Below are positions 147 through 61,206 of a stretch of 64,000 nucleotides of DNA, in pieces. The notes under the pieces were generated by a model. It was not told the DNA's origin and made no database searches. It saw nothing but the letters and a program-made list of their open reading frames with translations. Position 1 is the stretch's first letter. Each line of letters opens with the position of its first letter. The stretch is from Undaria pinnatifida (lineage: Eukaryota; Sar; Phaeophyceae; Laminariales; Alariaceae): positions 2,410,501-2,474,500 of the forward strand of contig JABAKD010000014.1 in assembly GCA_012845835.1 (NCBI GenBank). The letters are read 5' to 3'. The position numbers were made by a program, and so were the translations under genes.

Positions 147-257
147 ATGTGGACAGGCAATCCTAAGAGGACGGATAACAAAGCGAGCATGGACCCGTTC
201 GACCCGGATGCGATCATCCACGTCCTCTCAAGATGCGAGTCCTGCCAGCTAGGGCAG
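147..257 (+). CDS. Candidate first exon of the coiled-coil gene
   Basis: The frame opens with ATG at 147 and runs 37 codons to a good donor, CAG|GTGAGA, at 257/258, ending on a codon boundary. A second methionine begins MDPFDPDAIIHVLSRCE, which reads like a real protein start. A Cys pair (CESC) lies near the exon end. An alternative is an acceptor at 155-156 (GGACAG), which would make this an internal exon starting out of phase. No domain is recognised. Assignment to the downstream gene rests on strand and phase only. Confidence 0.4.
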
Positions 258-3200: not shown

Positions 3201-6200
3201 TAACTTTTTTCTGCTTGGTTTCACACCACCGCCAGGGCAGGGCGTTCTTAGTCTGCGAGCTTATCTTTTTTTTTTTTTTTTTTTATCCTCCGGCGGATGG
3301 GGAAAAATAAAGCTTTAGCTCACCACACTTCCACGTATTTTCATACGCGTCGTGTATCGATTTAACTCAGTTGCTTATCGTTCTTGCTATTTTGTCGTCA
3401 CACTACCTTAACACACGTTCCATGCATACATGCCATTTGGTTGTCACAGCATGATGGACGAAAGTTTCTCCACCGTTGTCAACATGTTGGGTTTTCGCTT
3501 GTTCGGTTTCGGTTTTGTTGTTTCTTGGGGGGGGGTGCGTTATGTTTTTTTTTTCTGTACTAACAACTGCTGCTGTAGAGGGCTATTGGCAATATTTTCG
3601 ACCTTTTCGTTCTCACAGCAAAATCGAGGAAGCTTTGCCCAGCATATAAAGTAGGAACGGATTCTCTTGGGAAGACAACAGCGATAATAACGTCGACAAA
3701 TGAGGAAAACGCCAAAAAGTTGGCGTTGGTTGGGGTGTGTTGTACTGCTGCTGTTACTGTGTTGGTTGTTGCGATTTTTGGGCTGATTCTGTTTTTGTTT
3801 TTCTCTCGTCTCAGTCGTGGTCAACTTATTTCTTGGGTTCCGATGTTTGTTGAATCATCATTTGCTTTCACTGCTGTCCATCGCACGTGCGTTTTCCTCT
3901 CGGTACCATCTACCATTTAGTACTACTGCTTGCTCTTCGGGCACTGATCCTGCAGCGTGGAACCCGCTCAACTTTGTTTTTTCGTGTGTTGCAAGGGAGA
4001 GGCCTCTCTTTAACGTTCTTTCTGCGAGATGAAACGAGAGAACACCCTTCCTTCCACATCACCACGCCACCTGAGAACTGAGTACCGCACACGTATGCCG
4101 TTGTCAAAAGTGCCCTTCCTTCCACATCACCACGCCATCTAAGAACTGAGTACCGCACACGTATGCCGTTGTCAAAAGTGCCAAGTAGTGTTCGGGTGTC
4201 CCGGGTTCCGGGGACCCGCGGTACCCGGGGTCACGGGAACCCGGCACTCAAAATCCCGCGGTTCTCCCGGGACGAATCCGGGCCTACCCCACGAACAAAG
4301 TTGCTGGGGTCCCGGTACCGAATTTTGGTGCCGGGGCGCAACCCTACTGTGGTGTAATAGCTCGAAGGTAGACGCATAAACGTAACAACAACCGCAACAC
4401 GCTGGTCCGGTCCTTGACGTCACCGCCGCCTCACACAAACATGTGCAGGCCCTGGTGCTCCAGCGGAGTGCTCTGATGTACCTTCGGCAGGGGGTCTTAT
4501 TTGAAACTATGGATGAGCTTGCCGGGCGAGGTCTCCCAACCCAACACAGTACACAACAGAAAAAAAAGAAAAAAATCCACCAACACTTTCCCCATGAACC
4601 CACAATTTGCAATGTGTGTAAGTGTGTAGGATAATAGGAACAGACCTCGAACCGATCCACCCAACCAATTAGATGGCGTCCTGGGGGCGTGACAAACACT
4701 GAAATAAATAGAATAGTACCTGATTTTGGCCACAAAGACACCGCCATTAATACCGGAAAACAGTTGTCCATCGCCGATAAGAATGTTGTATACATCCTTG
4801 AACCCTACCCATCCATGGTGTATCACTCTGTTCACAAAGGCCAAAGTTTCTTGCTGTATCGAGACTGGGTGGTGCATGCTACCCTCGCGACGCATGCCCC
4901 CCTCGCCCCCTTCGCCACGCTCTTTGAGCCCCGTCGCCCGCGCGGAGAGATGCAAGCCGTGTCCTGTGGCGCTCGTTCCGACCCTCGACTGCTTCCGGCC
5001 TCCACCTCCTAGCCTCCACCTGTTGACATCCGCTCTGTCCGGAAGTATATTGCGGGGGTCTGTCTTTATGTTGACGTCTTAACGGTCCTCATGTTCTCGG
5101 GCACGTCTAATTATCCCGTAAGAAAAGAGACACCGGCTCACCCACACACAGACGCTTTCGCTCGTGCCTCGACGAGCACGCGCCCGCGCGGCGGGAGAGC
5201 GCCGGTTTACCCTTGTCTTCACCCATGCCACAAACCCACGGCGAGACCCGTGCTAAACAAAAAGTCGGGGGTAAAAATCGGGCCTGGAGACAAGCAACGC
5301 GGATGATACTCACTCGCGCGCGTTACTAAAACCAGTTGGAATTAGTGTGGATGTATTTTTCTTGGAGTTAGTGGGGGTTGGTTCTTCCAGGGGCGACCCA
5401 CCCACCCCCCACCGCGCGAAACAACTAACCCACGTTGTGCACCCACCACCCACCCACCACCCACAGACCAGCCCACTACTACGACAGCAGCACAGCAGTG
5501 CAGCAGTACGCACGGGCGTTATGGAATCCAGGCTGAGCTTCTCACACAGGAAAATAAGAAACTCGGGATTCGTTTATTGCTGAAGTTCGTGTTGAACGCA
5601 CCTATTCTCATACTTCGTATATGAAATGCAGCCATTGACTTTTTTTTTTCACCAAAGAGCAATAGTATGTATCTGTTGGGACTTTGGAGCTTCAGAGGGA
5701 AATTGATAATGAAATTGATGCTTACAGCATCAATTGATGCTGTAAGCATCGGGCACTGCTTATTTTATTGGGATGTGATACATTTGGAGTCCGAAGTGCA
5801 ATAATGCAAGGGGTCGCAGAGGACGGGTGCGGTATAAAACCTACTCGTACTGCTCGCTACTCGTACTGCTCGCTCACGCTACTCGTAGAAGCTAGAAAAT
5901 ATCGCTATTAATAATTGCCGTGGTTTGGTTGCTGTACTTGGGTCTCATGAGGGAGTCGATGGGCGTGCGGTGCACAAGGAAGCAAGAAAACCGCCAATCG
6001 TCTTTTTTCGTTTTCGGCCTCATTTTGACGACGTCGGTATCTCTGACTTTAGCTCAGCTGCTGGTTGGGTGATAATCGTAGCGACGTTCATACTCGAGGG
6101 GGGGGGGGTCAAGGTTGGAGGCGAGAGTTCCACCTCCAGCCTGAGCAACAGGACTATCGAGGTCGACGAAAGAGTGTATAATATCGATGTGTCGTGTACT

Positions 6201-8538
6201 TATGTAGACTACTGCTGCTGTGCAAGGTGTATGAATAGCGGCTGTTGTAGTTTTGTGTGACCAAGTATGTAAACCTCTCTCCTCTCCCACTCGTGTTGGG
6301 GAAAATTACTCGGCGTTAGTGTGGTATAGCTTTTGCCGTTCTGAAATAGTTGCTGTGGCAGATGTGTCACCACCCTTCGAAACAAATCGTGCCGAACCTT
6401 GGTCTGATTTGTCGAGCGAGGCGGGCCTTTCGGTCTGTCGTTTCTGTTTTGGCACAACGCTACGGAAACACGCCGCAGAGCGGTACGACCGCCCTTGCCC
6501 ATCTCGAGCCGCCCGAAATATTGGGGTTATGGTTGAGCACCCCTACAGAGTGCACATGCGGTATCCATACCCACCTTTTGAACATTGTCGTGCAACACCT
6601 TTTGGTCAATTCTATCTCGATTGTAGATCCAGGCCCAACCCAACCCCGAACCTAAGCCCAACCCTGACCCCAATCCCTTGGGGAGAGCGAGGGTCGGCAG
6701 GGGCTGTCGTGCGTCTCTGCCTCTTGTGTTTTTGGTGGCGCGTTGTTACGAAGAAAAACGCGCAGTCGAAGAGATGACCTCGACCAATCGTTCAGTAATT
6801 GTGGTGTTGCACGAGTGCATTTGCATGGTGTGTTGTCTTTCCTCAAAGCGGTTATGCTTGTTATAGTTATTTATCATGTTCCTGTTGATTCCCCGGTTCC
6901 GATTCCTCCTCCTTGCCTTCTCCGTCCAATTTCGCTTACCGCCGACCCCCTTCCCCCCCCATCCCCCCCCCCCGTCCCCGCCTCTGCGACGACGCCTCGT
7001 TTTTCTGTTCGCGGTGCTACGCTTGCCCGCCGTTACCCGCCTTGACCTCTTTTTAAACTGAAACACCGTCGGCCTGGCGACCGAAACGCCAAAAAACACT
7101 AAAAACTTCAATAAAAACCTACAAAATACCAACACATCAAAAACAAAACGACAACAAACAATCAATAACAACATAAAACGCGTAAAAAACTACTCCAAAA
7201 ATTCAAAATTGTGTACAAACGCAGCCCCTTTCTATTATCAAGACGAACGCGGTCATCGACGGCGCGGTGAAGTTCGCCCCAGGGACCGTCTTTCAGCAGC
7301 CCCCCAACACCAAGAGCCAGACCCTCCTCGGCTGCTTCAAGAACGGAGTCCCCCTCCACGATTTTGTCCTGGGGGGGACAGCGGCGGCGCACGTCAAAAG
7401 GGAGAGGGAGCTCGAGATGGAGGAGCGACAGGACAGACAGGTGGGTTGGGGGGGGGGGGTTGAGGGAGGACATACAGTTGGGTGCGGAGGGGTCAGGGAG
7501 AGGGGAGTGGGAGGGACGGACGGGGCGGGAGGGAGGTACGCGTTGGAAGCGCGAGGGGGGAGGCGGCGATGTAGTTGTGACGTGGGGGGGGCGGGGCGGG
7601 GGCGGGGGCAGGGAAAGATTGCTGTAGTCGCGGTAGGGTTAGGCATGGGGACGGGGGAAGGGGGGCCGATGTAGTTGCGGGGTGGGGGTTGGTCAGGTTG
7701 CTGTAGCTTCATTAGGGGTGAACGTGGAGGAAAGGGGAAGGGCGGCTGCTTAGGTTCTGGGTAGGGGGTGGTGCGACTGCTAAGCGGGACGGAGCCCCTG
7801 CTAATAATCGCTCGCTTTCGTTGCTCCCTCCCCCCCTCCCTCCCTCCCTCCCCGTTCTGCGCGTACTTTCCCCACGCTTTTTATGATTTATTTGTTTCTC
7901 GCCTTCCCTCCCCGTGGCCCGTCTACCTTTTCCCCGGTGTGTCCGTTTTCTTGCATGTCTTACCCTCCGTTCCCGCGCCGCGTGTGTACCCTTTTGCCAT
8001 GTCCCCCCCCTTTTTTTTCACCGTTCCTGCCCATGGCATGTGCACCTTTTTGCGTTACTTTATCTCTTGTTTGTTCGGTGTTATTATACCCCAAGCAGCA
8101 CAAGCGCAAGGCCCCCTCTCCCGTCAATCACGCCGCCTCCGCGAAGAAAGCCCCGGTGGCGCCGATGGTAACGGTGAAGAAGCCGGCCATGTCCGTTTTC
8201 GAGCAGGCAGCCAACCAAGGGGTCTCTGGGATCACGTGCCAATATGTGCGTATGCTTTCGCAATGGTTATCGTTTCTATGGCGAGGAATGGGGGGAGGGG
8301 GAGGGGCGCATATCCTGTGTACGTGGTAGGTCTTTCGTTTTCGTTTCGGACATAGACCGTGTTTTCTGTGTTCAGGGTGTGGAAGGAGAGGCAAGGGGGG
8401 TTAGGGTATTTTTGGCAGTGTATTTGTGTGCGTTTACGGGTGTCTATTGCGTGCGTAGGGAGCCTGGGGGTGCCCGGCAATTTTCTTCCCCTTCCCCCCA
8501 GAGACTCCAACAACAACGTACGAAAATTGTGCCTGTTT

Positions 8539-8608
<70 letters not shown>

Positions 8609-11600
8609 CGTTGTCGTTGTTGTTGTTGTTGTTGTTGTTGTTGTCGTTGTTGTTGTTGCTCGCTGTTCACGCATTCGACCATTACCGAAAGCATCCCATT
8701 CTTAGTTCAAGCGGTTTATCGCCACGATTGGGGTTGCTGTTATGAAGGAGTCGGTTTATCGCCACAATCGAGGGTGCTGTTATGAAAGGATCGGTTTATC
8801 GCGAAAGCCGGGGGTGCTGTTATGAAAGGGGTCGGTGTATCGCCACAATCGGAGGCGCTTCTATGAAGGGGTTGGTATATCACCACAAACGAGGGTTCTT
8901 TTCTGAAAGGGTCAACAGCCTTGTACAACCGCACCCGCCCTTTAGGTGTCAGCGCTTTGTTGTGTGAGTGGATGGTGTTTGCATTGGTTCCCGGTAACTT
9001 TATTCCTGTGCGCTGTCAGAACGTTTCCGAACAACCCCGAATCCCCTGCCTTTTCACACTAATTTTCGGTATAATTTCGTCTTTTTTTTAGCCATCCCCT
9101 CCCCTCTCTTAAGCCAAGTTAATACGCGTTTTGGCTCTGTAGCTCCTCCACCATCTACTCGACATTTCATCAGACTTGTATCTAAACATGGGCTCTCGTG
9201 TGGCCGCTCCGCTGCCAATGGCACATCAATTCAAGGCTTTAACCCGGCACATGACTTGGTTATCCGCCTCGAAAATTCCAATTTCTCCTACGCGTATAGC
9301 ACAAAAGTGTGGGTGTGTTTTTTCAGGCATGGGTGTGTCCCTGGTTTTGGCCGACTTTTGAGATTTTGATATTCTTAATGCATAGTTGCTTGACTTGAAG
9401 TTTGTATATATTTTTCTTATTTTTCTTTCTCGCGCTCAGCATCGATTCCTCTTGTCTTTGCAGTCACTCACGGATAAAGTTTTTTAAGTCATTGCTCTAA
9501 ATGTCCTTGCCTACTGGAAATAGTGTTCCGGACGGACCATGTCATCTCTCTTTTTTCCATCGCTTTTGCTTTCCAGCTTAAATCGTAGGAGGGTTTTACC
9601 CTCAGCGAGCTTCTGGACAACCCGTGGTTACCGGTGTCTTCTCTTCCCCCCCTCGTGCTTGCCGCCATTTTTATAGCGTAATAGGGTTCAACATTCCCGC
9701 TTTCAGCTTTTTATGCTCGTCGATTTGCATCGAGTTTTTCTAGCCCACGCTCTCACGCTTTTCCGCTGGTCAGTTTTACGGAAGGAAGAGTGCCTAACGA
9801 GCACAAGCATGCACTCGGTGAGACTTGGACCGACGACCTTAACGTTGGTAGGGACGATATACACCTACTACGCCATCGAGGACGCCGACTTTATTTGATA
9901 AAATACCATTTTTCGTACCTATACATGCTGAAAAACATTAAAATTATACCACCAAACGTCCGCCGCCAGCAGAACTACAGTAGCACTATTGCCAGTACAG
10001 AGTACAATAGCAGAAGCACTACTACTTGCTGTGTGCACTATTTTTTACTAGTAGCTTTCAACAGACAACGACGGCGGCGGGGCGCAGACAAGCCTGCGTG
10101 TTCTTTGCGGAGGGCACACACACTCGCTTCTGCTTGGTCAGCCTGTTATTCTTAGTGCGGTTTCACGAGCGGCAGGAGACGCAATCTGTGTTGTTTGCCG
10201 AGGATATCCTGTGGGACTGTTGTACCAGAGTACAGCAACAGTACTGCTTGATCTATACTATATACTCGCAACTTTCGATAGGCAACGACGGCGGCGGGCA
10301 GCAGAGCGGGGCCCGCTGCTCGCCCCTCGCCCTGCTCCCCGCCCAGCGGACAAACCCGCGTATCGTCCGGTATGACATGTATGCGTGCCAATGATATGAC
10401 CTCTGCGACTACCTTAATTTTTTACGGGAGGAGGTCGCACGAAGACCGCAACCACTATTAGTATGTACGAGTCAGGAGTCAGGAGTAGCCTTAGAAGCGT
10501 CCCTGGGACCCACGTGCAGAGCAACCTCTCTACGCGCTACGAGCAATACAAGGATTAACCTTCGTAGATCTGACAATGAATCCCCGCCCCCCCCTACTCC
10601 TGAGTTCCCTCTTTTCCCTCTTCGTCCCTCCCCGCCCTACTTGTGACCCCCCCCCTCCCCCTCCCACTGTTTCTGCCCCCCCCCCCCCCCCCCCACTTCT
10701 TTGGTCTCGCGTCATGGCCTGTTGCGGCAGTTTTCTCGTGCGGAGCTAGAGGAGCTAGAGGCGGAGGAGAAGGCGGCGGGCAGACCCATCAAGCGACAAG
10801 GGACCAGGAGCGCCTCGGTCGGGGGCGCTATCACAGGAAGCGGGGTGAGTTTTCCTTCGTCGTGCGTGTTTGTTTTTTTTTGCCGGGGCGGGAGCGCTCC
10901 GTCAGGAAGTGGGGCGATTTTTCTTGACGGGCTTTAGCCGTGGCCAAGTTGTTGCAGGTAGTCGCTGCGCGCTCGCGAAGAAATCACTGGAGCGACTTTT
11001 TTTGTTTTGTGTTTTTTGGGGGTTGCGGTTCTGGCCTGCGGTGTCTTGCTATGGTATCAACGAGCGCCATTATGTATACCATGCATATTCTCGGCACCGC
11101 TCGGGACGAAAGATCACGGTATTTTTGTACTCATAGTATGTTGCGGATATGAATGCCCCAAAAGTCCCTAACCCCCCTTTAGAGCCCCATAATCCCTCCC
11201 TATAGTAACTTTCAAGTAAATTTGTAAAAAAGAAGAGTTTCCAGAAGTGAAGGCGTTACATTTTCGTCAGGGGTTACCTGGTACCAGGTATATGTTAGGG
11301 AGGCGCCCTTCTTGGGTGGCCCCTTGTAGCGAAGGGAAGTGCCATGGGTCAATCCAAAACTTGCCTTCAATGTCATGTTCAATCTCTTTCTCATTCTCGG
11401 AGTCAATCTCAAGCTCAATCTCATTATCGTTCTCGGAGTCAATCTCAATCTCAATCTCAATCGTTTAAGCTTGTTGTCCTCAATCTATCGCCTTAATCTC
11501 GATCTCAGTCACGTCCTCAATCTCAAACCTCAATGTCCCCTTCAGCTCCCCCCTCAATCCCCGTCTCATTCTCCCATTCAATCTCAATCTCAACTTCCCC

Positions 11601-14600
11601 CTCGATCTCAATCTCTATCTCAGTCCCACCCAAAATTCCAAGCTCAATCTCCTCCATCTCGATCTCGCTCCCCCCTTCGATCTCGATTTCAATCTCCAAG
11701 TTCAGTCTCCCTCAATCTTAGTCACCATCTACCCCTCAATCTTGATATCAATCTCAATCTCCCCCTTAATCTCAGTCTCAATATCAATTTCTCCGTCAAT
11801 CTCCCCGTCAATCTCAATCTCAAGCTCTCCACCAGTCTCAATCTCATTCTCAAGCTCTCCCTCATTCTCAATCTCAATCTCAATCTCCCCTCATTATGTC
11901 TTCACTTCAATCTCAGTATCAATCCCCCCCTCAATCTCAATCCCAATCTTCCACCCTCACTGCCTTCCTTGGTTCAAATTTTCGGTTGACAGTCTGCTGC
12001 AGTTTTGGCCCGTAGACGTCTGTTTAGACTTAACTCAATGCATGTAGTACTGATGCTCGATTCGCGCGTCCGATTTCATGGGAAGTTCAATCTCACCTAC
12101 TCATCGAAAACGAAGGGTAATCGGCTAGCTTGTTGGCTGAAAACGTTTTTTTTTTTCAATCGAATTTTCCCTTCTATTCCACTGTCTTTGTTTTGCTTCA
12201 GTTTTGACCTTGTTTTGCTTTTCTTGCCTTTTCGTCATATTTGGCCGTTTAATCCTTTTGCGTATTTTCCGTTGTGGGGACAGGCGGGTTGGGACGGCAC
12301 CCTGACGGGGGCGGAGGGGGCCGACAGCGCGACGCAGCTGGAGTTGCTATCAGCCGCGGAGGCCGAGCTGAGACACTCGTTCGACGCACAGATGAAGTTT
12401 CTCAACGAGGCAAGAGGAGGACCATAGTGGGAGTTTCCCTATATAGTGCCGGTTACGTAGTGCCTGTTGCCGCTGTAGTGCTGGAACGAGTTGAGACGAC
12501 TTGAACCCGCTGTACTAGTACCGGTATCGATGGTATACCCAATGGTGCGGGGGTCCGACATACTGCCGGTATTGTGGGCTGGTACATGCCGGCACTATTG
12601 GAACACCTTCCGCTGTGTTGATATATGGTTCATTTTCCCACGACAAACACGGTGTTCTAGTAGTTCCAAGTAGCTTGTGGCTAAAAATCCGGTGGCGTTA
12701 TACGGGGTTTAGTATCCCCCGTCGGCTGGCCGTTCATAATTGTTGCTTAAATTGATATCATATCCTCCTCGTGCCACCTTCCAGCTTACGTAATGAAGCA
12801 TTACTCGGGGGGGGTGGGGGGGTTGTACCTGATACTGATTGTCGTTCATAGCCGTAGTCCTTTGAGCATAACCTGTTCCACCCCTACAATGCCGAGGCGG
12901 GACATTCACCGATCAGGTAAGGGCGGGAGCAGTACACTGGGACAGAGGGGGCTATGGGGTGGCGACGTCTCCATTCGCTGGAGGAGGCTTTGGTTTTTTG
13001 GTGGTCGGTGGTGCGTACCTAAGGTTGTCGTAATAGGTGGCCTCGGGTTGTGTCCCCCTTGCGTGCGCTCGAGATACCGGCCGCCACAAACTCGTCGAGC
13101 GTTTTTTAATGGGGACGATTATGTCGTAGCATAACGACCTTGCCGCGTCAAAACGATCTCGTGTTGGCAACACGATTTTGTCTTGTGGCGAAACGATGCT
13201 ATCGTGGCAAAACGATGTTATCGTGGCAAAACGAAGTTATCGTGGCAAGCCTGTGAATTATTTTAATATTATTCGAAGGCGTTTTCGAGACATTTGAAGG
13301 CGATTTTGTCATTTTTCCACCAATTACCAGTGTGCATTATCCTTCCTTCGTGTACAGGCGGAAGAGGCCAAAAAGGCGGAAATGGTGGCGTTCCAGCGGG
13401 CTGGAGAAGCAGCCCTGCAAAACTACGAACGATCTAGGAAGGTGAATAAAGCGCAGCAGTACCTGTGTTGTTTAGTTTTTCTTGTCGTGTTGCTCGGCCT
13501 TGTTTCTGTTGTGCTTGTCGTGCCCGGTGCGTTGACATTTTCATTTGCTTTCCTCGATGCACAAGTTGCGACAATTTCGGTTTTTCTCTGTTTCATGGTC
13601 TTGGCCTTATAATTATATTTGCTGGTATCGAAGTAGGATACAGGATCAGGACGGACACTGTGTGTGACACTTGTTACGATAGATGTATACCGCTTTTTGG
13701 CGAAAGTTTTTTCTGAGTAACGGGGCTCCTTAACCCGAAAGCGTCGGAAAAAAAATGAATAATGGGCCATTTTTTTCGTATCTAAGCCGTGGGTCTGTTC
13801 GTGAAGTTGCACTTTCGGTATACAAAAAAAACGGTTTTTGATCCGGCTTTGAGGCTCTTCCAAGTTGAAGAGCCCCCAGGAAAAAAAAAAATGTTGCGCG
13901 CCTCTACCGTCGCACGCGTCGTGTGTTGGTGTCATTGGATAAAGACAATGGTTTGCTGTGAGAACAACGCGCACAGTGGGACTTCCACTGGGGGGTTGTT
14001 TTCCGGCAAGCGATGACTATTGCGGCATATTGACCACACGAGGCGGCCTGGTGTAGAGCGGAGTGTCCGGACTGCGCTACTGGGAACAACTGTACGACAC
14101 ACGCAGCATGATGATGCTTGTACCACTTGCCCCTGCCGTCTCCCCGCCTCTCCGTGCTCTCTCACACCGCGTCTTGTTAATAGGCTACATCAGACGACTG
14201 CCTCAAGCTGCACAAAGCTTTCCTCAGCCAGCGTCAGCGCATAACCCGCCTGAGAATGGAGGTGCGCGAAAAAGAACTTGTACCCCACCCACAATGAAAG
14301 GGCTAACCAGATGCGTTCGCCGCACAACAAAAATCGAAGCGTCGGGCGCGCTCAATTTTCTTTCTGACGTCGAGGCTTCGTGATTCTTAATCAGATAATG
14401 AATCATTTTGTCAATGTATGTTGACCAACGTTCGAACAATCTTTTATGCTAGAGATGCAAGTTCTGTTTTCACAGGCGTTATGAATCGAAAATGAATTTA
14501 GGCACCCAAACGAATGTCAAGGTGTGTTTGGTGTAAAGTTCGCATCGAACCGTTTTTTCTACCCGTCCAGCACACCCAGTGTCTGTGCGGATGCTTCATC

Positions 14601-17600
14601 ATACAGAGATACAAGCTCTCCGGGTGTGTTTTGTGTTCTTCGCATGAAACGGATGTTTCTCACCCATCGACATCCAGCACACCCAGTGTCGGTGCCGATG
14701 TGCCATCGTAGAGGGAGACGACGCTCTGCGGTCACACACTACCAGACGGAAATGTAGCAAACAAAGTACAAGGGGTTCAGCAGTGCAATGGCAAACATAC
14801 TGCATACGAAAGCGGAACATACACAAGCCAACACACCAGGCAACATGCACTGAAGGAAGAGAAATAACAAGAAAAAATAACTACAGGAAAAAAATGGATG
14901 CAAACTACAGAGGTCGCAAACAGAGTGAGGATATTTAACAATGCAACATCTCCCTAGGTTCACCATTTTCGCAACAAGGCGGTGCCCTCCGTCAAACAGT
15001 ACACCAGGGTTAGGATGGTTACAACCGAGACTGGCTCGCGTACCTGGGCAGTCTTTGTTACTGTAATGTAATACGGCTCAGTTGTGTGAGGAACCCGGGA
15101 GAAACGATTCCGCTTACGGTTTTTTGTTCACCTCTCCTACGGCATCAAGGCAGGCCGCATGGTCATTGGACACGTCGTACAAATAAAAGCAAACACGACA
15201 AGTCGGTGTCTCGAATTCCAGTGGATAATTGGAACGCTTTTCGGGCAACTGTAGAGGTCCCTCACGGTCCCTCTATAGCGCTGGTGTGTGCCAGCCGGAA
15301 ATACCGGCACTACAGCGGCAGCCGGCACTACTCCGCGTACTACCGCTGCTGGTTGTTCCCGTTTTTGCCACGCGATTTAACTGGCGATATAACGGGCAAC
15401 AGGCACTAGTCAACCGGCGTGATAGAGGGACCAGTACTGTATAGTTTGTCCGACCCATCACGTACTCCATCCAGATTTCCGATTGTTGGAGCAGGCATCG
15501 CGGTTGATTACTCTTGAAGTGCACCCATGTTTTTGGGGACAAGCTACTTGAAAACCATTGAATGTGTTGAGCTTTGTAAAATTAAAAGGGCTGACGAGGC
15601 ATCAAACGCGTTGCGTGGCGATATGTGTACACGGCAGGTGGACCGCGTGATCGGTGGACATATCGATTGACGGTGGACATGGTGTGACTTTCTTTGTTCT
15701 GTAGGGTGGCGTGCAGTAAGCGGTACGAGTCGCATGCTGTAGTGCGCTTTCATTATTTTCCGCAAGCATAGGAAGGCATTTCCATCTCGGGAACCTACCC
15801 TCTAGACCTCCAATATTGCAACAGAGAGCCTTCCTGATTACAGCTTGATATCTGTCTACGCAATGGACCCTCCGCATGTACTGGTCCGGGCAGTACCACG
15901 CATCAACCGTATTACATCTTGGCGCAGGCGGTTACAATACCCCCCCCTGTCCGACGCATACCTTTCATCGGTGCGAAACGGTCATCCCGATCATGACCCG
16001 GCAGTACAGCGGGCGCTTTCCATCCAACTTATCCTCCATTCTTCCTCGGCTCCGGTGGTTGCAACACCCCCCCCAGCCTGGCCCTTGTGAGCGTTGGTGC
16101 CAAGCAGGCATTCCGGCGATGAACCGACCCTCCGTCCTACCTCAGCGCCCCGCCACTGCCACACGCTCCAGCCCGACACCTGTGAGCAACGGCGTCCAAC
16201 CGGTATTCCGGCAACCGAGCGCGTCTCAGTAGTTCCGCGCCCCCGACGACGGTGTTGACCGTTGCCAGTGCTTGGGAAGAGCGGCAGTCCTGGGCTTTGT
16301 TCCCGATTTTTTTTTTTCAACAATAACTCGATAAGCCGACGCCTCGCACCCCTCTCGTCTCACTACGCTTCTAACGACTTGCAGACCTCAGCCAACACCG
16401 CATGAAACCACCCGTCAGGCTCGTACCCAAGGGCGCTTTGGTCTTTCCGCCGTGAGGGCACCACCTTCCCCCCAAACAGCAACGCCCCATGGCTGTTGGG
16501 CGTCCGTCTGCGACAGTGTTGACAACATGGTCGCCAGCGAACATCCCCCCACGTACGCAGACACAAATACTGACACAATCGCACTCTCACAAGGCACATT
16601 CACACAAAAGGCATGCCAGTGCACACACGCGGTCGAGTGCGCAGGTCTCCTACTTTTCCTCCGTGTAGCGCCAGCGCCCGCATACATCGAGAACGTAAAA
16701 TTTGAGCTTAAGCTTTGTTTTTCCCCATCCGCCGGAGGATAAAAAAAAAAAAAGTAATATTTGTGCGAATGGTAAGACCCATAGGAGTCAACAGACGTTT
16801 CATTTTGCCAGAAACCCGCAAACTTCTGGGGGACGCGCGCGGTGCAGAGGATGTGGTGTCATGGCTGCGGATGCAGTGCGTTCCGAGACCGCGCTGTCCG
16901 CTTCGAAGCTGATGCAGCTCGGTAAGAAGCCGTGAAGGAAGATCGGAAGCGCTGCTTCTTTTTCCGCTGCTGCCTGCCTAGCGGTGCCAGCCTGGGATCG
17001 CATAGTGTTGGCCTCGGCTTGGTCTGGGTTCGCGGCCATGACTGCCACATCCACGTTGCCGTGCGCGTGTCCTCCAGCAGCTTACGGACTTCTGGGGAGA
17101 CAAACCGTCTCTCGTCCTAAATGTTCACACACCGGACAGATCATGTTCCAGATAATCTACATCCTTTCTGTTTCGTATACATGTAATGGTATGGTGTGCG
17201 GGATCTGTGCAGTACAGATCTAATCTTGGAAATATGTGCTAGGCTGACCGTCCGGTTCTCACAAGGCGACGTGATCTATCGGCCATGCAGATCGTATGGA
17301 CCAGGGGTCTTATCTGCCCTGAAAGACATGGATCATTAGTAATTAGTAGGGATATGACATTTGCGACGTGTATTCGTGTTCCACTGGCGATGGTGATCAT
17401 AATCATTATCACGACGAGTCTCTACACGCCTTTTGGTGGAACTAGGTACTGGCGTTCCCGATGGAGTAGGTTAATCTCGTCCTTACTAACGTGAAGGTCA
17501 TGGGTTCAAGTCTCGCCGAGTGCATTCCCTTGCTCGTAGGGACTTTTTCTTGCGCAACAATCGACGGGCGGAAAGTGCGAGAGCGTAAGTTAGCAAAAAT

Positions 17601-20600
17601 CGACGAAATCGACGAGCGCAAAAAGCTGAAAAGTGGGAATGCTGAACCTTCTGCGCGATTAAAGTGAAGGCATGTACCGGGGGGGTGAGAAGGGAAGACA
17701 CCTGTGGACACGGCTTGTCCAGAAGATCGCTGAGGGTAAAACCTCGTACGATTCGAGCTGGAGAGTGAACGTGATGATTAAGAAAACTATAACTTGAAAA
17801 GAAAAACACCGGGTAGAGCGTGGCATAGGACGCAAAGAGAACATCGACGATAACTGACTTGTAAGACCCATTTGGACGAGTCCCCACATATGGTTTGTTT
17901 CGCCGGAAGTCCGCAAGCTGCTGGGGGACGCGCGCGGCGCAAAGGGTGTGGTAGCCGTGGCTGCGGATGCAGTGCATTCCGCGACCGCGCTGTGTGCTTC
18001 GAAGCTGATGCCGCTCGGCAGGCAGCAGCGGAGGAAGAAACTTCGAATCCAGGCAGATGGCTCGTCTCGCCGGAAGTCCGCAGGCTGCCGGGGGACGCGC
18101 GCAACGCAAAGTACGTGGTGGCCATGGCTGCGGATGCAGTGCATTCCGAGGCCGCGCTGTCCGTTTCGAAGCTGATGCTGATCGGTGGGCAGCCGCGGAG
18201 GAAGAAGCGCTTCTTCCCTCTCTGCTACCTGCCGAGCCGCGCTTGTCTGGGAGCGGACAATAGCTGTCTCGCCTTGCGCTGCCTCCGCAGCTGTGGCCAC
18301 TACATCCATGGTGCCACGCGCATGTGCTTGAGCAGCTTGGGAACTTCTGGGGAGACGAGCCGTCTCTCGTCGTATGTGTCCCGCTGACGCTGGTGGTCAT
18401 GAGTGATGATAAATCTCTACCCGCCAGTCTCTGCTGGGAGGAAGCAAAGATAACATCGTACGGTTACCGACTACATTCCTGTTCCTGTCCCCGAAGTCCG
18501 CAAGACGGTGGAGGATGTGCGCGCGGCGAAGGATGTTGTCGTTATGGCTGCGGAGGTGGTGCTAGCCGAGATCGCGGATGTCCGCGTTGAGGGTGGCACT
18601 GCTCGGCTTGCGGCCACGGAGGAAGAAGTCCCGTTTTTCTCTTCAAGCTGTTGGAGCCACGGGTAGCTTGGATTGAAGCGCCGCTTCTTCCTTCGCGGCT
18701 TGTTAGGCCCGCCAGCCTCGATGCCCACACTTCGTGGTCTCAGCTTGCGTTGCCTCCGTGACCATGCCCGAGCAAAACTGCGAAGGGAGGCCTGCCAACT
18801 GGACGGCCTGCCGTTGCTCAGCAGTGAGCGCATGCACCACGGATAGCTCGGAGCGAAGCGCGACTTCTTCCTCAATGGCTGCCTGCTGAGCAGTTGCAGC
18901 CTCTAAGTGGGCAGCAGGGACTATCCGATGCGTGGTTTCCCAACTCGTTTGCAGATAATGCTAATATCGCGACAGTCCGCTTCGAAGCTGTCTCGGGTCG
19001 GCAGGCAGCCGCGGAGAAAAAACGGCACTCCATTCCAAGATATCCGAGGTGCTCGCACTGCCTCGGATACCTTAAAGTGCAATATCGACGCTTTCGCCGC
19101 GGCCGCCCGGTGAGCAGCGCCAGCCTCAAAGTGGACAGAAGCCAAGTTCGAACGCGAAGTCTAGAGGCTCGTGTGGCAGTGGAACCCGAGATCGCGACTG
19201 CCCGCTTGAAGAGTGGCGCTGACCGGCAGGCAGCCGCGGAGCAAGAAGCATCGCTTCGCTCCGAGTCATCCGAGCCTCGAGTAGCTTGGATCGAAGCGCG
19301 GCTTCTTCCTTTGAGCTTCGTGTTGAGGCCCGCCAGCCTCGACGCACACACTCATGGTCTCGGCTTGCACTGCCTCCGCAGCCATGGCCGACCAAAGCTC
19401 CGAAACGAGCTCTGCCGCCTGGATGGCCGCCGTTTGCTCGCCGGTGAGAGCTCCACAGATAGCTCGGAACGAAGCGCAGCTTTACCCCGCGGCTACCTAC
19501 CGAGCAGCTCCAGCCTTCAGCTCCAGCCTTTTAGGCGGACAGCAGGCAAGCTCCGAAGCGAGGCATACCGATTGGTTGGCCGCCGCTGCAAGACGCAGGC
19601 GGCACGAAGGATGTGATACGCATGGCTGCGGAGTCTGTGCAAGCCGAGATCACAGCCGTTCGCGGCGAGGCTGGCGCAAATCCACGCGTCGGATACCTCG
19701 GTCGAAATCGCGTTTCGCGCTCCGTGGCTGCCTGCTAGCAGCGTCAGCCTCGACGGCCAGCGCCTTGGATTCCTCGGGTTGAAATCGCGCTTCGCGCTGC
19801 GTGGCTGCCTGCCTGGAGCCACCAGCCCCAACACGGACGGCTGCTTTTTCGGCTTGCACCGCCTCCGGAGCCATGACCGACGAAAGCGCTGAAACAAGGT
19901 CTGCCGACTGGTTGGCCGCCGTTTGCCCACCGGTATGCGCCTCCGATAGCTCGGAAAGATTGAAGCGCAGCTTCTCCCTCCGCTGCGGCCTACCGAGCAG
20001 CGCCAGCGGATAGCAGGCAGGCCCGAAGCGACGCGTGCCGACGGGTTGGCCTCCGCTGCAGGACACGCGCGGAGCGAAAAAAAAAATGTGATGCCCATGG
20101 CTGTGGAAGCAGTGCAAGCCGAGATCGCAGCCGTCTGCGTTGAGGCTGGCGCTGCTAAGGAGCGGAGCGCGAAGCGCGACTTCACCTCGAGTTATCCGAG
20201 GCGCTGTGAGCACTGGTGAGCGCCTCGGGTAGCTTGGATCGGAGTCCCGCTTTTTCGCGCCGCGGCTGCCCACCTATCAGCGCTAGCCTCGACGCGGACG
20301 GCTGCGATCTCGCCTTGCACTGCCTCCGCAGTCATGGCCCAGCGCTCCGAAACGAGGCCAGCCGACTGGTTGGCCGCTGTTTGCCCACCTGTGTGCCCCT
20401 CGACAGCTCGGATCGAGAGCGCCACTTTATCCTCCGCGGCGGCCTGCTGAGGAGCTCCAGCCTCGAAGCGGACGGCTGCGATCTCGGCTTGCATTTCCAC
20501 CGCAACCATGGCAGACCGAATCTCCACAACGAGGTCTAAACACTTGCTGGCCACTATTTACTTAACCGTGAGCACCTCAAAGAGCTCAGAACGTCGCGCC

Positions 20601-23129
20601 TTTATTTCCTCGACCGCCTGTCGAGTAACATAAGCCTGTAAACGGATAGCAGGCGAACTCCAAAGCGAATCATACCCACTGATTGGCCGGAGCTACAGGA
20701 CACACCCTGCGCGAGGAAACTAGCCCCGGAGGCAGTGCAAGCCGAGGTTGCAGCCGTCGGAGGCGAGGCAAGCGCTCTCTTCTACGCGGACGGCTGCGAT
20801 TTCGGTTTGCACTGCCTCCGCAGCCATGACGGACCAAAGCTCCGAAGCGAGGGCTGCCGACTGGCTGGCCGCCGTTTGCTTACCGGTGTGCACTTCGGAA
20901 AGCTCGGATCGAAGCGCTGCTTCTTCCTCCTCGGCTGAGCAGCGCCAGCCTTCAAGTGGACAGCAGGCAAACCCCCACACGAAGGATGCCGACTGGTTGG
21001 CCGCCGCTGCAAGACACGCGCGGCGCGAAATGGGTTATACCCGTGGCTGCAGAGGCAATGCAAACCGAGACCGCAGCCGTTCGCGTCGAGGCTGGCACTG
21101 CTAGGCAGGCAGCCGCGGGGCGTGAAGCGCGATTTTGTTCAGAGGTCAGCGTCTCCGGTAGTCGGATCGAAATCCCTATTCGCGCCCCGCGGCTGCTTGT
21201 CTTGCTGCGCTAGCTTCGACGCGTACGGCTGCGATACCGGCTTGTGCTCCGCAGCCATGGCCGCCCAAAGCTCCGAAGCGAGGTCTGCCGACTGGTTGGC
21301 CGCCGTACACCTATCGGGGTGCACGTCGGATAGCTCGGATCTGAGCGCCGCTTCTTCCTCCGCGGCTGCCTTCTGAGCAGTGCCTGTCTCTAAGCGGACA
21401 GCAGGCAAGGTCCGAAGCAAAACATGCCGACTGGTTGGCCGCTGCTGCAGGACACGCGCGGCGAGAAATATGTTACACCATGGCTGCGGAAGCGCAAGCC
21501 GAGATCGCAGCCAACCGCGTCGAGGCTGGCTCTGCTAGGCAATCAGCCGCGGAACACGAAGCGAGACCTTGCTCCAAGGTATCCGAGGCGCTGGTGAGCC
21601 CCTCGGCTAGCTCGGAAATCCCTCTTCGCGCTGCGCGGCTGCGTGCCTAGAGGCGCTAGCTTCGACGCGGGCGTCTGCGATCTCTGCTTGCACTGCTTCC
21701 GCAGCCATGGCGGACTCAAGCTCCGAAGCTAGAGCTGCTGGCTGATTGGCCGTCGTTTGCTTTCCGGCGTTCGCCTGGGAAAGCTGGGATCGAAGCGCCG
21801 CTTCTTCCTCCACGGCTGCCCGCGGACAGCCGCGATCTCGGCTTGCTTGCACGCCCTCCTCACCCACCGCTACCACGACCTTTGCGCCGCGCGCGTCTTC
21901 CAGCAGCTTGCGGACTTCCTGTGGGACGAGCTGCGTACGGTACCGTAATCGGTTATTGTTCGATGTTCGCTTTGTTTTCTATCTGCTCCCGTTTCATTTG
22001 GAAACGTGTGTGTAAAGATCCCAGCTGTCCATTTCATGGCAGGAGCTGCTCACCACGCAAGCCGCAGAGGGCGAGGCGGCGCTCCACTCTGAAACATCCG
22101 AGGCCGTCACCGGCCTAGCACCTTGGATAGCTCAGAACGGATCACCGCTTCTTTCCCCGCTTTGGCAGCGCCAGCCTCGAAGCATACAGCCATGACTTCC
22201 GCTGTCTCCGAAGCGAGGTTTCCCGACTTGTTGACGGCAGTTTTGCTCACTCGTTCCCAAGTAAAAAAACTCAGCATGGAACGTGTTCCTGTCGTACTAG
22301 TGGTGATCGTATGGTACGTGTCGTGTCCTGCTGTATCATCAAATACGCCCCCGCCCCGGCCCCTGCGCGTGCTTGCAGGAGATACGCACGTTCCCCGCGT
22401 GAGCATTCTAGCCCCATGTATTTTAGCCTGGGAGAATATGGCTGTTTATTATTAATGTTGCCAGCGAAAGCTTTCCAATTTACACCGCCCAAAGAAAATG
22501 GGGACTCCTTTTTCGAGATCGCTGAAACGTATTATACGTCCGACGCTGCCGACCGAAAATAAATGGCACGAACATTGACGATAGTTACAGAGGTCCTGCT
22601 GGGCGCGTTCCTATTGATAGCTATACTGTCTTGAACAATATACAAACTCTTCTGCCCTGCACTGCCGTGTGAACCCCCCCCCCCCACGGCGCACCCGCGG
22701 CGCCTGCAGGAGGTGGACCAGGAGCGGGCCCGAAACCAGCTGGAGAGCGAAAACCGGGAAGCTAGGCTTAAGGCTGAAAAGGAAGCGCTGTCACGTGCCT
22801 GCGAGGAAGAAGCGGAAGAACTAGGAAATGCATGGGCGGTTGTTGAAGCCGCGGCAGGGTTTACACCCAATGATGAGGCGGGAGCGGCGGCGACGGCGGC
22901 GGTGGGGAACGAAAATACCGGCGATAAGATGCACCAGTTAGCCGCGGCGGCGGCGGCGGGGGCGGGGGGTATTGTAGGAGGAGGCGGTGGACTGGGGGTG
23001 GGCGGGGGGGTGAATGGTGGCGGTGACGTTGGCGGTGGTGGTGATGTTGGTGGTGATAGCGATAGAATGGGTGATAATAAAGCGCCGGTACATTCTGTGG
23101 GGGCTAACGGTGATGTTGGAGGGAATTGA
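147..23129 (+). CDS. Large multi-exon coiled-coil protein gene (gene-level entry)
   Basis: I join nine exons into one gene because all lie on the + strand, all end on a codon boundary, and all but the uncertain first begin on one. The later exons encode the same kind of sequence: Ala/Glu/Gln/Arg-rich, strongly helical, without prolines, typical of coiled coils. The exons are 147-257, 847-990, 7243-7440, 8099-8245, 10731-10844, 12284-12409, 13358-13441, 14184-14261 and 22710-23129. Further exons probably lie within the palindromic array at 16.8-22.2 kb. The N-terminal exons are not helical. No catalytic motif, membrane segment or signal peptide is visible, and I do not recognise the family. 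A structural or cytoskeletal scaffold is only a guess from composition. Introns are long (up to 6 kb) and full of mobile elements. The two 5'-most exons could belong to a different gene, because the 6.2-kb gap after them is unexplained. Confidence 0.5.
757..781 (+). repeat. 25-base C homopolymer
   Basis: Uninterrupted C run in the intron between the first two exons. It keeps three frames open as proline and so produces spurious ORFs around it. Confidence 0.95.
847..990 (+). CDS. Internal exon 2, basic and acidic, non-helical
   Basis: The acceptor AATCAG| at 846 and the donor GAG|GTATGG at 990/991 bound 48 codons with both ends in phase 0. The peptide begins VGTRVCVEKGHLATVASV, a beta-rich pattern faintly like the first strands of CAP-Gly or other SH3-like barrels, but the signature of CAP-Gly (GKNDG) is absent, so no domain is assigned. 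The second half carries an acidic run (YTEEEVDARYRLMLKPGE). It follows a 25-base C tract in the preceding intron. Confidence 0.5.
991..1730. other. Intron sequence, no gene seen
   Basis: Rich in GTAC, CAG and CTG triplets (for example near 1385-1460 and 1590-1660), with no splice-bounded frame I can support. Confidence 0.4.
1735..2030. repeat. ~155-bp intronic tandem repeat, two copies
   Basis: Copies at about 1735-1868 and 1893-2025 share AGGGGCG(A/T)C, CACGAAAC, CCACCCACGA and CCGTCTTGAAAT in the same order. A diverged third copy lies at 5340-5470 (CTTCCAGGGGCGACCCACCC). Confidence 0.6.
3262..3322 (-). repeat. Poly(A)-tailed repeat end, copy 1 (antisense)
   Basis: A T run followed by ATCCTCCGGCGGATGGGGAA matches, as reverse complement, a segment at 16700-16753 that ends in a run of A. 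Only about 45 bp plus the A tail are shared, as expected of a 5'-truncated retroposon. Confidence 0.4.
4045..4182. repeat. 68-bp tandem duplication
   Basis: Two nearly identical copies start at 4045 and 4113 (CCCTTCCTTCCACATCACCA). They lie just inside the right end of the TIR-bounded element. Confidence 0.85.
4720..4853 (-). CDS. Possible orphan exon on the - strand
   Basis: On the - strand a CGATACAG| acceptor and an ATCAG|GTACTA donor bound 134 bases with one open frame. The peptide includes QETLAFVNRVIHHGWVGFKD, VYNILIGDGQ and LFSGINGGVFVAKIR. It looks protein-like and superficially recalls a paired amphipathic helix (SIN3) repeat, but I am not confident. No partner exons were found. It lies antisense in an intron of the large + strand gene and may be a captured or decayed fragment. 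Confidence 0.3.
5010..7240. other. Long intron, no supported gene
   Basis: Contains a diverged copy of the 1.7-2.0 kb repeat (5340-5470), a G tract (6100-6109), a degenerate CCCTAA-like stretch (6633-6677) and an A-rich block before 7200. Several frames are open, but none has consistent splice sites and coding-like composition. Confidence 0.4.
7243..7440 (+). CDS. Internal exon, 66 codons
   Basis: A pyrimidine-rich stretch ending TATTATCAAG| precedes the exon, and CAG|GTGGGT follows it; both ends are phase 0. The peptide starts TNAVIDGAVKFAPGTVFQQP, contains GCFKNGVPLHDFVLGGT, then turns into a charged helix (KRERELEMEERQDRQ), so the coiled-coil part of the protein seems to begin here. The frame stays open well into the G-rich intron, which is composition bias rather than coding. 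Confidence 0.6.
7441..7790. repeat. G-rich intronic low-complexity stretch
   Basis: Dominated by GGGGG and GAGGG runs on the + strand, able to form G-quadruplexes. Open frames on both strands (Gly/Arg-rich on +, Pro-rich on -) follow from composition. Confidence 0.7.
8099..8245 (+). CDS. Internal exon, 49 codons, basic linker
   Basis: CCAAGCAG| at 8098 is the acceptor and TAT|GTGCGT at 8245/8246 the donor, giving phase 0 at both ends. The first half is a Lys/Ala/Pro-rich basic linker (HKRKAPSPVNHAASAKKAP). The second half (KKPAMSVFEQAANQGVSGITC) may fold as a short helix. Joined to the exon ending at 7440 the frame is continuous. The preceding intron is unusually T/C-rich. Confidence 0.55.
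8538..8660. repeat. (TTG)n microsatellite
   Basis: About 40 TTG/GTT units with four C interruptions (TCG), inside an intron. It yields spurious poly-Leu, poly-Val, poly-Thr and poly-Gln frames. Confidence 0.95.
8705..8910. repeat. ~44-bp minisatellite, five copies
   Basis: Each copy carries CGGTTTATCGCCACAATCG and GTGCTGTTATGAAAGG with a few substitutions; copies decay toward the right end. Confidence 0.85.
9545..9886 (-). mobile_element. tRNA-derived SINE, copy 1 (antisense)
   Basis: Read on the - strand the element begins GGCGTCCTCGATGGCGTAGT, has a B-box-like GGTCCAAGTCT, then CACCGAGTGCATG, a body with AAATCGACGAGC and AAAAAGCTGAAA, and a tail with TTGTCCAGAAGCTCGCTGAG. It is alignable over about 340 bases with the copy at 17451-17785, including head, body and tail. 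The head has the box A/box B layout of a tRNA, so transcription by RNA polymerase III is expected. No long A tail is seen. Confidence 0.7.
9890..10640. other. Intron sequence, no gene seen
   Basis: Contains two related segments, each with (C/G)AACGACGGCGGCGGG (near 10068 and 10282), suggesting an old duplication, and GTAC-rich DNA. No supported exon. Confidence 0.35.
10676..10694 (+). repeat. 19-base C homopolymer
   Basis: Lies directly upstream of the exon at 10731 and could serve as part of its pyrimidine tract. Confidence 0.9.
10731..10844 (+). CDS. Internal exon, 38 codons, start of coiled-coil
   Basis: The acceptor is TTGCGGCAG| after a 19-base C tract; the donor is the strong GGG|GTGAGT. 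Both ends are phase 0. The exon encodes an acidic helix (AELEELEAEEKAA) followed by a basic, Ser/Gly-rich segment (GRPIKRQGTRSASVGGAITG). The charge pattern supports coding. Confidence 0.6.
11355..11975 (+). repeat. TCAATC-type pyrimidine-rich satellite
   Basis: About 600 bases of degenerate TCAATC/TCTCAA hexamers, with CCCCC variants. Open frames here (Asn/Leu-rich, Ser/Ile-rich) are by-products. It sits in the intron between the exons at 10731 and 12284. Confidence 0.9.
12284..12409 (+). CDS. Internal exon, 42 codons, with probable GC donor
   Basis: The acceptor is GGGGACAG| at 12283. The peptide ends QLELLSAAEAELRHSFDAQ then MKFLNE, a clear coiled-coil helix. No GT lies at the right place; the 3' end reads GAG|GCAAGA, a match to the minor GC-AG intron class. 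Joining it to the next exon (AEEAKKAEMVAFQRAG) continues the heptad-like helix in frame without a break, which is the main support for the GC donor. Confidence 0.6.
12425..13355. other. Intron with a 19-bp tandem repeat
   Basis: Four or five copies of a 19-bp unit (CGTGGCAAAACGATGTTAT-like) occupy 13140-13246. The rest is GTACC/CCGG-rich with no supported exon. Confidence 0.6.
13358..13441 (+). CDS. Internal exon, 28 codons, coiled-coil
   Basis: TGTACAG| at 13357 and AAG|GTGAAT at 13441/13442 bound exactly 28 codons, phase 0 on both sides. The peptide is entirely helical and charged (AEEAKKAEMVAFQRAGEAAL followed by QNYERSRK). It continues the helix of the previous exon. Confidence 0.65.
13669..13919. 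mobile_element. TIR MITE, copy 1
   Basis: The left end (TTGTTACGATAGATGTATAC then CGCTTTTTGGCGAAA) is mirrored at the right end (AAAAAATGTTGCGCGCCTCT then ACCGTCGCACGCG). Internal sequence (TCTGAGTAACGGGGCTCCTT; GAGGCTCTTCCAAGTTGAAG) is shared with copies at 29453-29754 and 39996-40254. No coding capacity. Confidence 0.65.
14184..14261 (+). CDS. Internal exon, 26 codons, coiled-coil
   Basis: CTTGTTAATAG| and GAG|GTGCGC bound 26 codons in phase 0. The peptide (SDDCLKLHKAFLSQRQRITR then LRME) is a basic helix with leucine spacing typical of coiled coils. It is too short to stand out by ORF length; splice sites and phase identify it. The next exons should lie in the array that follows. Confidence 0.55.
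14521..14720. repeat. ~100-bp tandem duplication
   Basis: Two copies share CCAGCACACCCAGTGTC, the surrounding TTCGCAT...AACCG-type sequence and the end CTCTCCGG/CTCTGCGG; 75-80% similar by eye. Confidence 0.65.
14740..16690. other. Intergenic or intronic sequence, no gene seen
   Basis: Holds short CCGG/TACC-rich segments (15290-15340, 15900-16230) with recurring CCGGCA motifs resembling those near 12540-12600 and 60220-60290. No frame with splice support. Confidence 0.35.
16700..16753 (+). repeat. Poly(A)-tailed repeat end, copy 2
   Basis: CCCCATCCGCCGGAGGAT followed by 13 A, matching the inverted copy near 3262-3322. It lies just upstream of the palindrome array. Confidence 0.4.
17451..17785 (+). 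mobile_element. tRNA-derived SINE, copy 2
   Basis: Starts GGCGTTCCCGATGGAGTAGG, with a canonical B box GGTTCAAGTCT at about 17500. Body and tail match the copy at 9545-9886 (GCGGAAAGTGCGAGAGCGTA; TTGTCCAGAAGATCGCTGAG). Relative to the other copy it has lost a few bases in the box A region. It interrupts the palindrome array between its first two palindromes. Confidence 0.7.
18493..18660 (+). CDS. Best-preserved + strand array unit (possible exon)
   Basis: After CCTGTCCCCGAAG the frame reads VRKTVEDVRAAKDVVVMAAE, then VVLAEIADVRVEGG, then TARLAATEEE, and reaches a stop in the palindrome arm just past 18660. It is the most intact forward copy. Other forward copies (16810, 17900, 18070) have a one-base slip after the DAV motif that changes the frame. 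Whether it is spliced into the large gene cannot be decided from sequence alone; no clean donor is obvious before the stop. Confidence 0.3.
21607..21928 (-). CDS. Best-preserved - strand array unit (coding-like)
   Basis: On the - strand an acceptor-like CGTCCCACAG| at about 21929 is followed by VRKLLEDARGAK, AAVEEEAALRSQLSQANAGK, ANQPAALASELES and AMAAEAVQAEIADARVEAS, open for about 107 codons. It holds two tandem copies of the helix. Related - strand stretches are open at 19650-20273, 20192-20554, 20720-20980 and 21139-21420. They could be exons of an antisense gene or a by-product of inverted duplication of + strand exons; the second seems likelier because flanking exons are all +. Confidence 0.25.
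22710..23129 (+). CDS. Terminal exon: coiled-coil then Gly-rich tail
   Basis: GCCTGCAG| at 22709, preceded by a C-rich stretch, opens 139 codons plus a stop (TGA, 23127-23129), phase 0. The first ~45 residues are a classic coiled coil (EVDQERARNQLESENREARL then KAEKEALSRACEEEAEEL). The centre is Ala-rich (GAAATAAVG, QLAAAAAAGAGG). The C-terminus is a Gly/Val/Asp low-complexity tail with repeated GGDVGG. This kind of tail is common in algal proteins and gives no function. Confidence 0.6.
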   Translation, partial: EVDQERARNQLESENREARLKAEKEALSRACEEEAEELGNAWAVVEAAAGFTPNDEAGAAATAAVGNENTGDKMHQLAAAAAAGAGGIVGGGGGLGVGGGVNGGGDVGGGGDVGGDSDRMGDNKAPVHSVGANGDVGGN

Positions 23130-41975: not shown

Positions 41976-42029
41976 GTTTTGCCTGTACGGTGCTAAATAG
42001 CGTTTGGGGAGGGGGGGCTGTTGCAGAAT

Positions 42030-60952: not shown

Positions 60953-61206
<254 letters not shown>

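Follow-up and report, generated by a model that had tools for sequence, protein, structure and literature searches.

Fold-back copying between short interrupted inverted repeats, followed by loss of one arm of the resulting palindrome, is described in the portion of the literature cited here (PMC4689423). In Drosophila, according to the sections cited from PMC10317233, hp-CG4068 comprises 20 copies in D. melanogaster and 9 in D. simulans, and hp-tHMG consists of 13 local inverted repeats. Ectocarpus miRNA loci that lie inside genes are given, in the corresponding excerpt, as mainly intronic and as sharing the strand of the host gene in all but three cases, and genomic hairpins have been suggested there as a source of miRNAs (PMC4513859). 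Among open-access titles and abstract openings, a body of literature with subscription papers mostly outside it, alternating inverted arrays of coiled-coil repeats in brown algae were not found. The locus considered here lies in a window of 64,000 nucleotides from Undaria pinnatifida (contig JABAKD010000014.1, positions 2,410,501 to 2,474,500, numbered below from 1), where forward and reverse copies of one coiled-coil unit follow one another. Row-like inverted repeats and fold-back duplications are already known, and what looks new is the presence in one genome of two homologous coding-repeat arrays that share an inverted habit.

The array appears to lie wholly within the last intron (about 14262-22709, ~8.45 kb) of a conserved brown-algal gene, the ortholog of Ectocarpus Esi_0017_0203. 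A search with the translated exons returned eight homologs (Pylaiella, Ectocarpus Esi_0017_0203, Ascophyllum, Scytosiphon, two without species names and two short ones), and four of them, used as tblastn queries, gave nine plus-strand exon stretches from 189 to 23129. In the six homologs that were aligned, the exon 8 peptide (ATTEDGLRLHKAF...RLRM) abuts the exon 9 peptide (EVDQERARN...) directly, while in the window exon 8 ends in ...RLRME at 14261, followed by GTGCGC, and exon 9 starts with EVDQE at 22710, preceded by TGCAG, both in phase 0. The direct junction in the homologs together with these splice-like sites strongly implies an intronic location for the array, and placement inside a gene, as given in the preliminary description of this DNA, is thereby borne out. 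Exact exon ends were inferred from splice-like GT/GC...AG sites; the intron after host exon 6 is likely of the GC-AG type (gcaaga donor, 12410-12415). The features are listed below with folding z-scores, which were obtained with 60 dinucleotide shuffles for each palindrome between bounds chosen by the authors.

189..23129, plus strand: host gene, from tblastn with four homologs
189-260, 805-990, 7222-7461, 8093-8245, 10731-10823, 12284-12409, 13355-13441, 14184-14261, 22701/22710-23129 (stop), plus strand: host exon matches
14262..22709, plus strand: probable last intron of the host gene, phase 0, ...RLRME to EVDQE..., ends placed from homologs and splice-like sites
16803..22249, both strands: whole array of P, A, Q and T blocks with about 11 palindrome axes, from block profiles, self-alignment and repeat search
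16803..17101: palindrome c1, +P A (Q) / -(q) p; z -7.1 (+)
17102..17896: interruption without array blocks, from block profiles and self-alignment
17897..18356: palindrome c2, +PAQ +PAQ -qap; z -7.8 (whole) and -9.9 (18064-18356), both on +
~18208: axis of c2, within GGAAGAAGCGCTTCTTCC
18488..18880: palindrome c3, +PAQ / -qatq; 18488-18766, z -5.2 (+), -1.7 (-)
18964..19102: degenerate palindrome c4, partial A, Q / q; z -1.1 (+), -3.0 (-), weak
19173..19585: palindrome c5, +AQ / -qatq t(partial); 19173-19387, z -4.2 (+)
19590..20055: palindrome c6, +A / -q q a t q t(partial), with a P start at 19590 read by eye; 19621-19875, z -6.3 (+)
20053..20689: palindrome c7, +(P)AQ / -qatqat t(partial); 20053-20337, z -15.2 (+), the strongest hairpin of the window
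20723..21006: palindrome c8, +A / -atq t(partial); 20723-20828, z -8.1 (+)
21003..21444: palindrome c9, +(P)AQ / -qatq(a)t(partial); 21003-21259, z -12.0 (+)
21441..21927: palindrome c10, +(P)AQ / -qatq(a)p; 21441-21709, z -10.5 (+)
21607-21978, minus strand: reading frame in the c10 region, open for 123 aa
22060..22249: degenerate palindrome c11, +Q / -qat; 22060-22211, z -2.1 (+), weak

Read in sense orientation, the units give AAEAVQAEIAAVRVEA-type helices, and the block consensuses translate as VSPEVRKLLEDARGAKDV (P), MAAEAVQAEIAAVRVEAG (A), AAEEEAALRSELSE (Q) and HTGEQTAANQSADLASELW (T). Followed along the plus strand, the blocks run +PAQ -q p; then, after the interruption, +PAQ +PAQ -qap; +PAQ -qatq; partial copies; +AQ -qatqt; +A -qqatqt; +(P)AQ -qatqatt; +A -atqt; +(P)AQ -qatq(a)t; +(P)AQ -qatq(a)p; and +Q -qat. 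The repeated forward and reverse copies of one coding sequence that had been reported are thus present throughout 16803-22249, and the estimate of about eleven palindromes agrees with the 11 plus-to-minus axes, c1 to c11. Outside the array, the block profiles found just two P-like matches in the rest of the window (E 0.4-0.8).

Strict alternation, as originally claimed, does not hold: there are same-strand runs (+PAQ +PAQ -qap at 17897-18356; -qatqat at 20224-20573), the arms are unequal, and direct repeats occur too. A composite (+PAQ / -qatq...) makes up much of the array and is itself directly repeated, its plus copies lying 320-629 bp apart (successive plus A copies from 18544 to 21479 are spaced by 629, 448, 475, 627, 320 and 436 bp). 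Self-comparison of the array, the check that had been recommended, returned the inverted repeats but also direct ones, with a 431-bp period across 20772-21821 according to TRF and a direct-orientation alignment of 19360-20450 with 20802-21826 over 1115 columns at 70.6%. Since the composite repeats directly, an element that carried both orientations from the start need only have been duplicated in direct tandem to account for much of the alternation.

Identity among 15 A copies is nearly equal for same-strand (0.774, 49 pairs) and opposite-strand pairs (0.765, 56 pairs), and a tree of 21 A+Q segments did not sort by strand (113 and 122 of 500 label shuffles were as low). Window arms are ~67-87% complementary. 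In six core palindromes (c3, c5, c6, c7, c9 and c10; by the author's choice c4, c8 and c11 were left out for their partial arms and c1 and c2 as a diverged 5' group) they were not significantly nearer to their own partner, 128 of 720 permutations being as good, and in the full matrix the own partner was the best minus arm for only two of 11 plus arms (c7, c10). Both the non-significant closeness of partners and the tree unsorted by strand count against the fold-back account set out below.

Dispersed sequences occur in and beside the array. Part of the interruption between c1 and c2 (17451-17776) is a dispersed repeat of ~330 bp, 77% identical to 9558-9886 on the minus strand, with copies also at L036:4874-5114, L037:334-534 and L037:4820-5058; GGTTCAAGTC within it resembles a tRNA-type B box, and we presume that it may be a SINE. 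A dispersed 50-bp sequence is present at 16703-16753, just left of the array, and at 3272-3322, L036:6720-6770 and L037:5849-5898. Elsewhere the window carries a CCCATGG-based tandem repeat built of short palindromes with periods of 10 to 54 bp (30648-31999), tandem repeats on the palindrome-like CTTCCATGGAAG / CTTCCACGGAAG (48097-49379), a retroelement remnant that reads like Copia, with a weak SH3_retrovirus match below the cut-off (41861-44568), a direct duplication of 229 bp with 97% matches (46648-47105) and a long (TAG)86 microsatellite (60953-61211). A bacterial-code scan of the window gave no tRNA, and no Rfam match reached the gathering score.

A second, diverged inverted array is present in the same genome on contig C57 at 9.569-9.571 Mb (L040:2865-5241, corresponding to C57:9568865-9571241), where 12 copies of a 222-nt (74-aa) unit stand in the order ++--+++---++. 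A whole-genome protein search at E <= 1 gave 28 matches, 20 of them on C20 and eight on C57 in both orientations (best there 4.6e-5, 41%). The consensus units of the two arrays align without gaps at 32 of 72 identical residues with a score of 139, against at most 73 in 2000 plain shuffles and at most 80 in 2000 heptad-keeping shuffles; when one unit was rotated, three of 74 scores were as high as the real one, the unrotated alignment included. The C57 array is better preserved than that of the window, and is followed by a plus-strand ORF (5070-5648 of L040) that reads like further coiled coil.

All 13 genome matches to the C57 unit at E <= 0.001 lie on C57. DNA searches of the genome were made with two array stretches, very common words being skipped: 20772-21831 gave 14 matches at E <= 0.001, 13 in the array and one of 80 bp at 78% on C22, and all eight matches to 17840-18400 fell within the array. 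The C22 match (L037:838-917; C22:12406838-12406917) is a solitary T-like fragment, 78% identical and distant from both arrays. Over 200 kb around the window, block profiles gave one weak A-like match outside the array (L006, E 0.008). An intact direct-repeat parent array was not found in this genome; P0011, a protein from another record (E 0.009), appears from the author's reading of its sequence to carry direct A-Q-T repeats with a frameshift. No relative was seen in phage records, and none of 67 viral-contig stretches that matched a pattern was confirmed, in collections from which records close to the window may be excluded. The search for the unit elsewhere in the genome, which the preliminary description had called for, thus yielded the inverted array on C57 and the C22 fragment. 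Its remark that coding units usually multiply as direct repeats was a fair one, and the second inverted array makes this unit family unusual and suggests that inverted duplication comes easily to it.

When the block consensuses were joined into one consensus unit, this showed a strong three-base period, equalled by 0 of 2000 shuffles, and G occupied 60% of first codon positions, which indicates that the unit was once coding, as had been proposed. Among the window copies the pooled differences amount to 0.282, 0.252 and 0.301 at codon positions 1, 2 and 3, and concentration at the third position is not significant in any block (permutation p 0.16, 0.55, 0.22 and 0.40 for P, A, T and Q, with 7, 20, 9 and 19 copies, respectively); many of their reading frames are broken. 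The chained consensus exceeded no curated Pfam cut-off (Tup_N alone appeared, at 21.5 bits against a cut-off of 28.7), and a PDB sequence search at E <= 0.01 gave no match. In the 12 C57 copies there is a third-position excess (0.310 versus 0.234 and 0.239, permutation p 0.026), present alike in ++, -- and +- pairs. Its presence within the plus copies, within the minus copies and between strands indicates that these copies diverged while coding; some contain stops.

The reading that we favour, with a probability of roughly 0.6, is that the window array is the decayed relic of a direct coiled-coil tandem that was inverted by fold-back and then duplicated, and that it has no use beyond being transcribed with the host pre-mRNA. 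The starting point would have been a direct tandem repeat with a unit like that of the better-kept C57 relative, of 74 aa (222 nt). Through replication errors in which the new strand folded back and copied itself, by tandem inverted duplication or an ODIRA-like process, blocks of units would have been turned around; the inverted composite would then have been multiplied by ordinary direct tandem duplication, the arms would have lost parts, and the array would have decayed within the last intron of its host.

The second array offers a view of the proposed inversion step. Mirror units across the C57 plus-to-minus axes are closest partners (five pairs, mean 0.795; two of 120 permutations as good) when compared with 26 pairs that mirror across no axis (mean 0.732), and in four of the five pairs the mirror unit is the best match of the plus unit. 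This is expected if multi-unit blocks were copied in reverse, and the pattern is consistent with a direct array, already in place, whose blocks were reverse-copied at the plus-to-minus axes. Mirror pairs across the minus-to-plus axes are not closer (four pairs, mean 0.739 versus 0.732). Symmetry axes were sought at 20 junctions and 11 were placed on the unit, c3 being counted despite a low symmetry score (22) since both of its arms map to 171-173; the nine not placed are c1, c6, c8, c11 and all five minus-to-plus junctions of the window. Both C57 minus-to-plus axes map to unit positions 73-82, the perfect palindrome TCTTCGAAGA, and the window axis c2 maps to 146-147, inside GAAGCGGCGCTTC (142-154), the sole perfect hairpin in the window consensus (arms of 6 or more, loop up to 12). 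Perfect palindromes thus underlie only three of the 11 placed axes, and the two on C57 may be one event that was copied. The other eight lie off such palindromes: six of them, all from the window, fall close together at unit 170-192, and the remaining two, the C57 plus-to-minus axes, at 13-18 of the next unit. The hairpin that is strongest in the C57 unit (AACGAAG..CTTCGTT, 189-207, arms of 7) carries no axis. Fold-back copying is the most likely mechanism on this evidence, which is suggestive and not proof. If inversion were purely accidental, its occurrence in both of the homologous arrays would be surprising, a point against the relic reading.

Another view of the arrays starts from their predicted RNA structures. 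On the plus strand, nine of the 11 palindromes fold with z <= -4 (c4 at -1.1 and c11 at -2.1 are weak) and on the minus strand seven do (c3, c4, c5 and c11 are weaker), against values between -0.2 and 0.5 for three control stretches in the window; 20053-21259 as a whole gave -12.5 (10 shuffles), and the C57 hairpins gave -22 and -36 against +0.7 for a control (25 shuffles each). The chain of long hairpins anticipated in the preliminary description is therefore predicted for most of the array. Given folding so far beyond that of shuffled sequence, a transcript of the host intron would form such a chain, and a role in small-RNA production is possible: both arrays could be hairpin-RNA loci, their folded transcript (here the host intron) being cut by Dicer into small RNAs for AGO, as for Drosophila hp-CG4068. 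Besides the strength of folding, with z down to -15.2 in the window, the closeness of the C57 arms to their plus-to-minus mirror partners would also result if pairing arms had been kept alike, the intronic position recalls the Ectocarpus miRNA loci inside genes, in the excerpt cited (PMC4513859), and hairpin arrays that make siRNAs exist in Drosophila, as the cited sections have it (PMC10317233). However, any inverted duplication gives strong folding, the long double-stranded RNA that the arms could form is a structural prediction, and the window arms pair imperfectly and are not significantly matched to their own partners. The longest exact matches of 18484-22249 were 17 nt (the C22 copy) and 12 nt (the C57 array), and hence no good trans target was seen; a target gene elsewhere was not found in the searches with two array stretches, the 80-bp match at 78% being the most that they gave. 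With arms not matched to their partners and no good target seen, we regard a small-RNA role as unlikely and keep to the unused relic. Less probable still is a combined scheme in which the 74-aa coiled-coil family was repeatedly inverted at the unlinked C20 and C57 loci through palindromes of the unit that seeded fold-back, the hairpin chains being small-RNA precursors and one of them delivered by an intron.

The suggestion that the units serve as alternative or variable exons, whether in the host gene or in a gene that overlaps it on either strand, draws on their coding origin, on array stretches that stay open for 100-130 aa, and on the acceptor-like CAG after which four of seven P copies start (16803 +, 17101 -, 18356 -, 21927 -). 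The AG is missing from the other three, however, open frames are probably common by chance at 62% GC, and intact, constrained exons with conserved splice sites were not found in the window array. The claim of an exon array or variable exon sets was rejected on the codon tests, which show no significant constraint, on the broken frames and on the six aligned homologs, in which the flanking exons are joined directly across what is here an intron, and we hold it to be very improbable. Slighter still is the chance that the array represents all or the inner part of a transposable element with complex inverted repeats. In favour of this are the +P with which the array starts and the -p close to its end (21872-21927), together with a dispersed repeat within it and a dispersed 51-bp sequence just to its left (16703-16753). 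However, dispersed copies such as a DNA transposon or MITE would have were not found by the genome searches or the 200-kb profiles: two array stretches recovered the array itself and one 80-bp fragment, and the 200 kb around the window held a single weak A-like match outside it. Where ~90 nt upstream of P were aligned, similarity between copies was patchy. Equally remote is the chance that a direct tandem array was wrongly assembled as an inverted one. Assembly of tandem palindromes is difficult, but nearest neighbours among the 15 A copies are 81-94% identical and the copies can thus be told apart, the window contains no N, and the C57 array, on a different contig, is inverted as well. Minus-strand ORFs of the window are also matched by two proteins that come from other records (source label 'lgn'), P0001 at 79 of 81 residues and P0002 at 54 of the first 56 before it diverges, so at least those two pieces are not peculiar to this assembly.

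A pair of homologous, block-inverted arrays of coding repeats in a single genome opens to test the idea that palindromes within its codons let a protein repeat seed its own inverted duplication. Both arrays are also obvious candidates for hairpin-RNA or miRNA loci of recent birth in brown algae, where hairpins in introns have been put forward as an origin of miRNAs. Should neither idea prove right, the locus would be a decayed curiosity, an example of how a gene made of tandem repeats falls apart.

Among known systems, the brown-algal exon-shuffled ROCO receptor genes likewise consist of repeated coding modules, but the excerpt cited mentions no inverted array, and the modules of the window are decayed and intronic (PMC11378527). 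Ectocarpus miRNA hairpins resemble the array in lying within introns, mostly on the host strand, and differ, as far as the cited portion goes, in that their precursors give a defined mature RNA where the window has an array of long imperfect palindromes (PMC4513859). The Drosophila loci hp-CG4068 and hp-tHMG share with it a row of inverted repeats and a variable copy number and, for hp-tHMG, a relation to a coding gene; unlike it, in the sections cited, they give Dcr-2-dependent siRNAs, and hp-tHMG has near-perfect arms against the ~67-87% of the window (PMC10317233). Tandem inverted duplication and ODIRA offer inverted-order copies about palindromic junctions, some on short palindromes, with arms later shortened (PMC4689423), and copies in inverted order around palindromic junctions are found in both the window and the C57 arrays, the mirror-image blocks being a likeness seen across the plus-to-minus axes of C57. 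The cases described in the portion cited are gene-carrying amplicons in yeast and humans (PMC4689423), whereas the Undaria arrays are made of ~0.2 kb coding repeats and are old, diverged and represented by two homologous loci.
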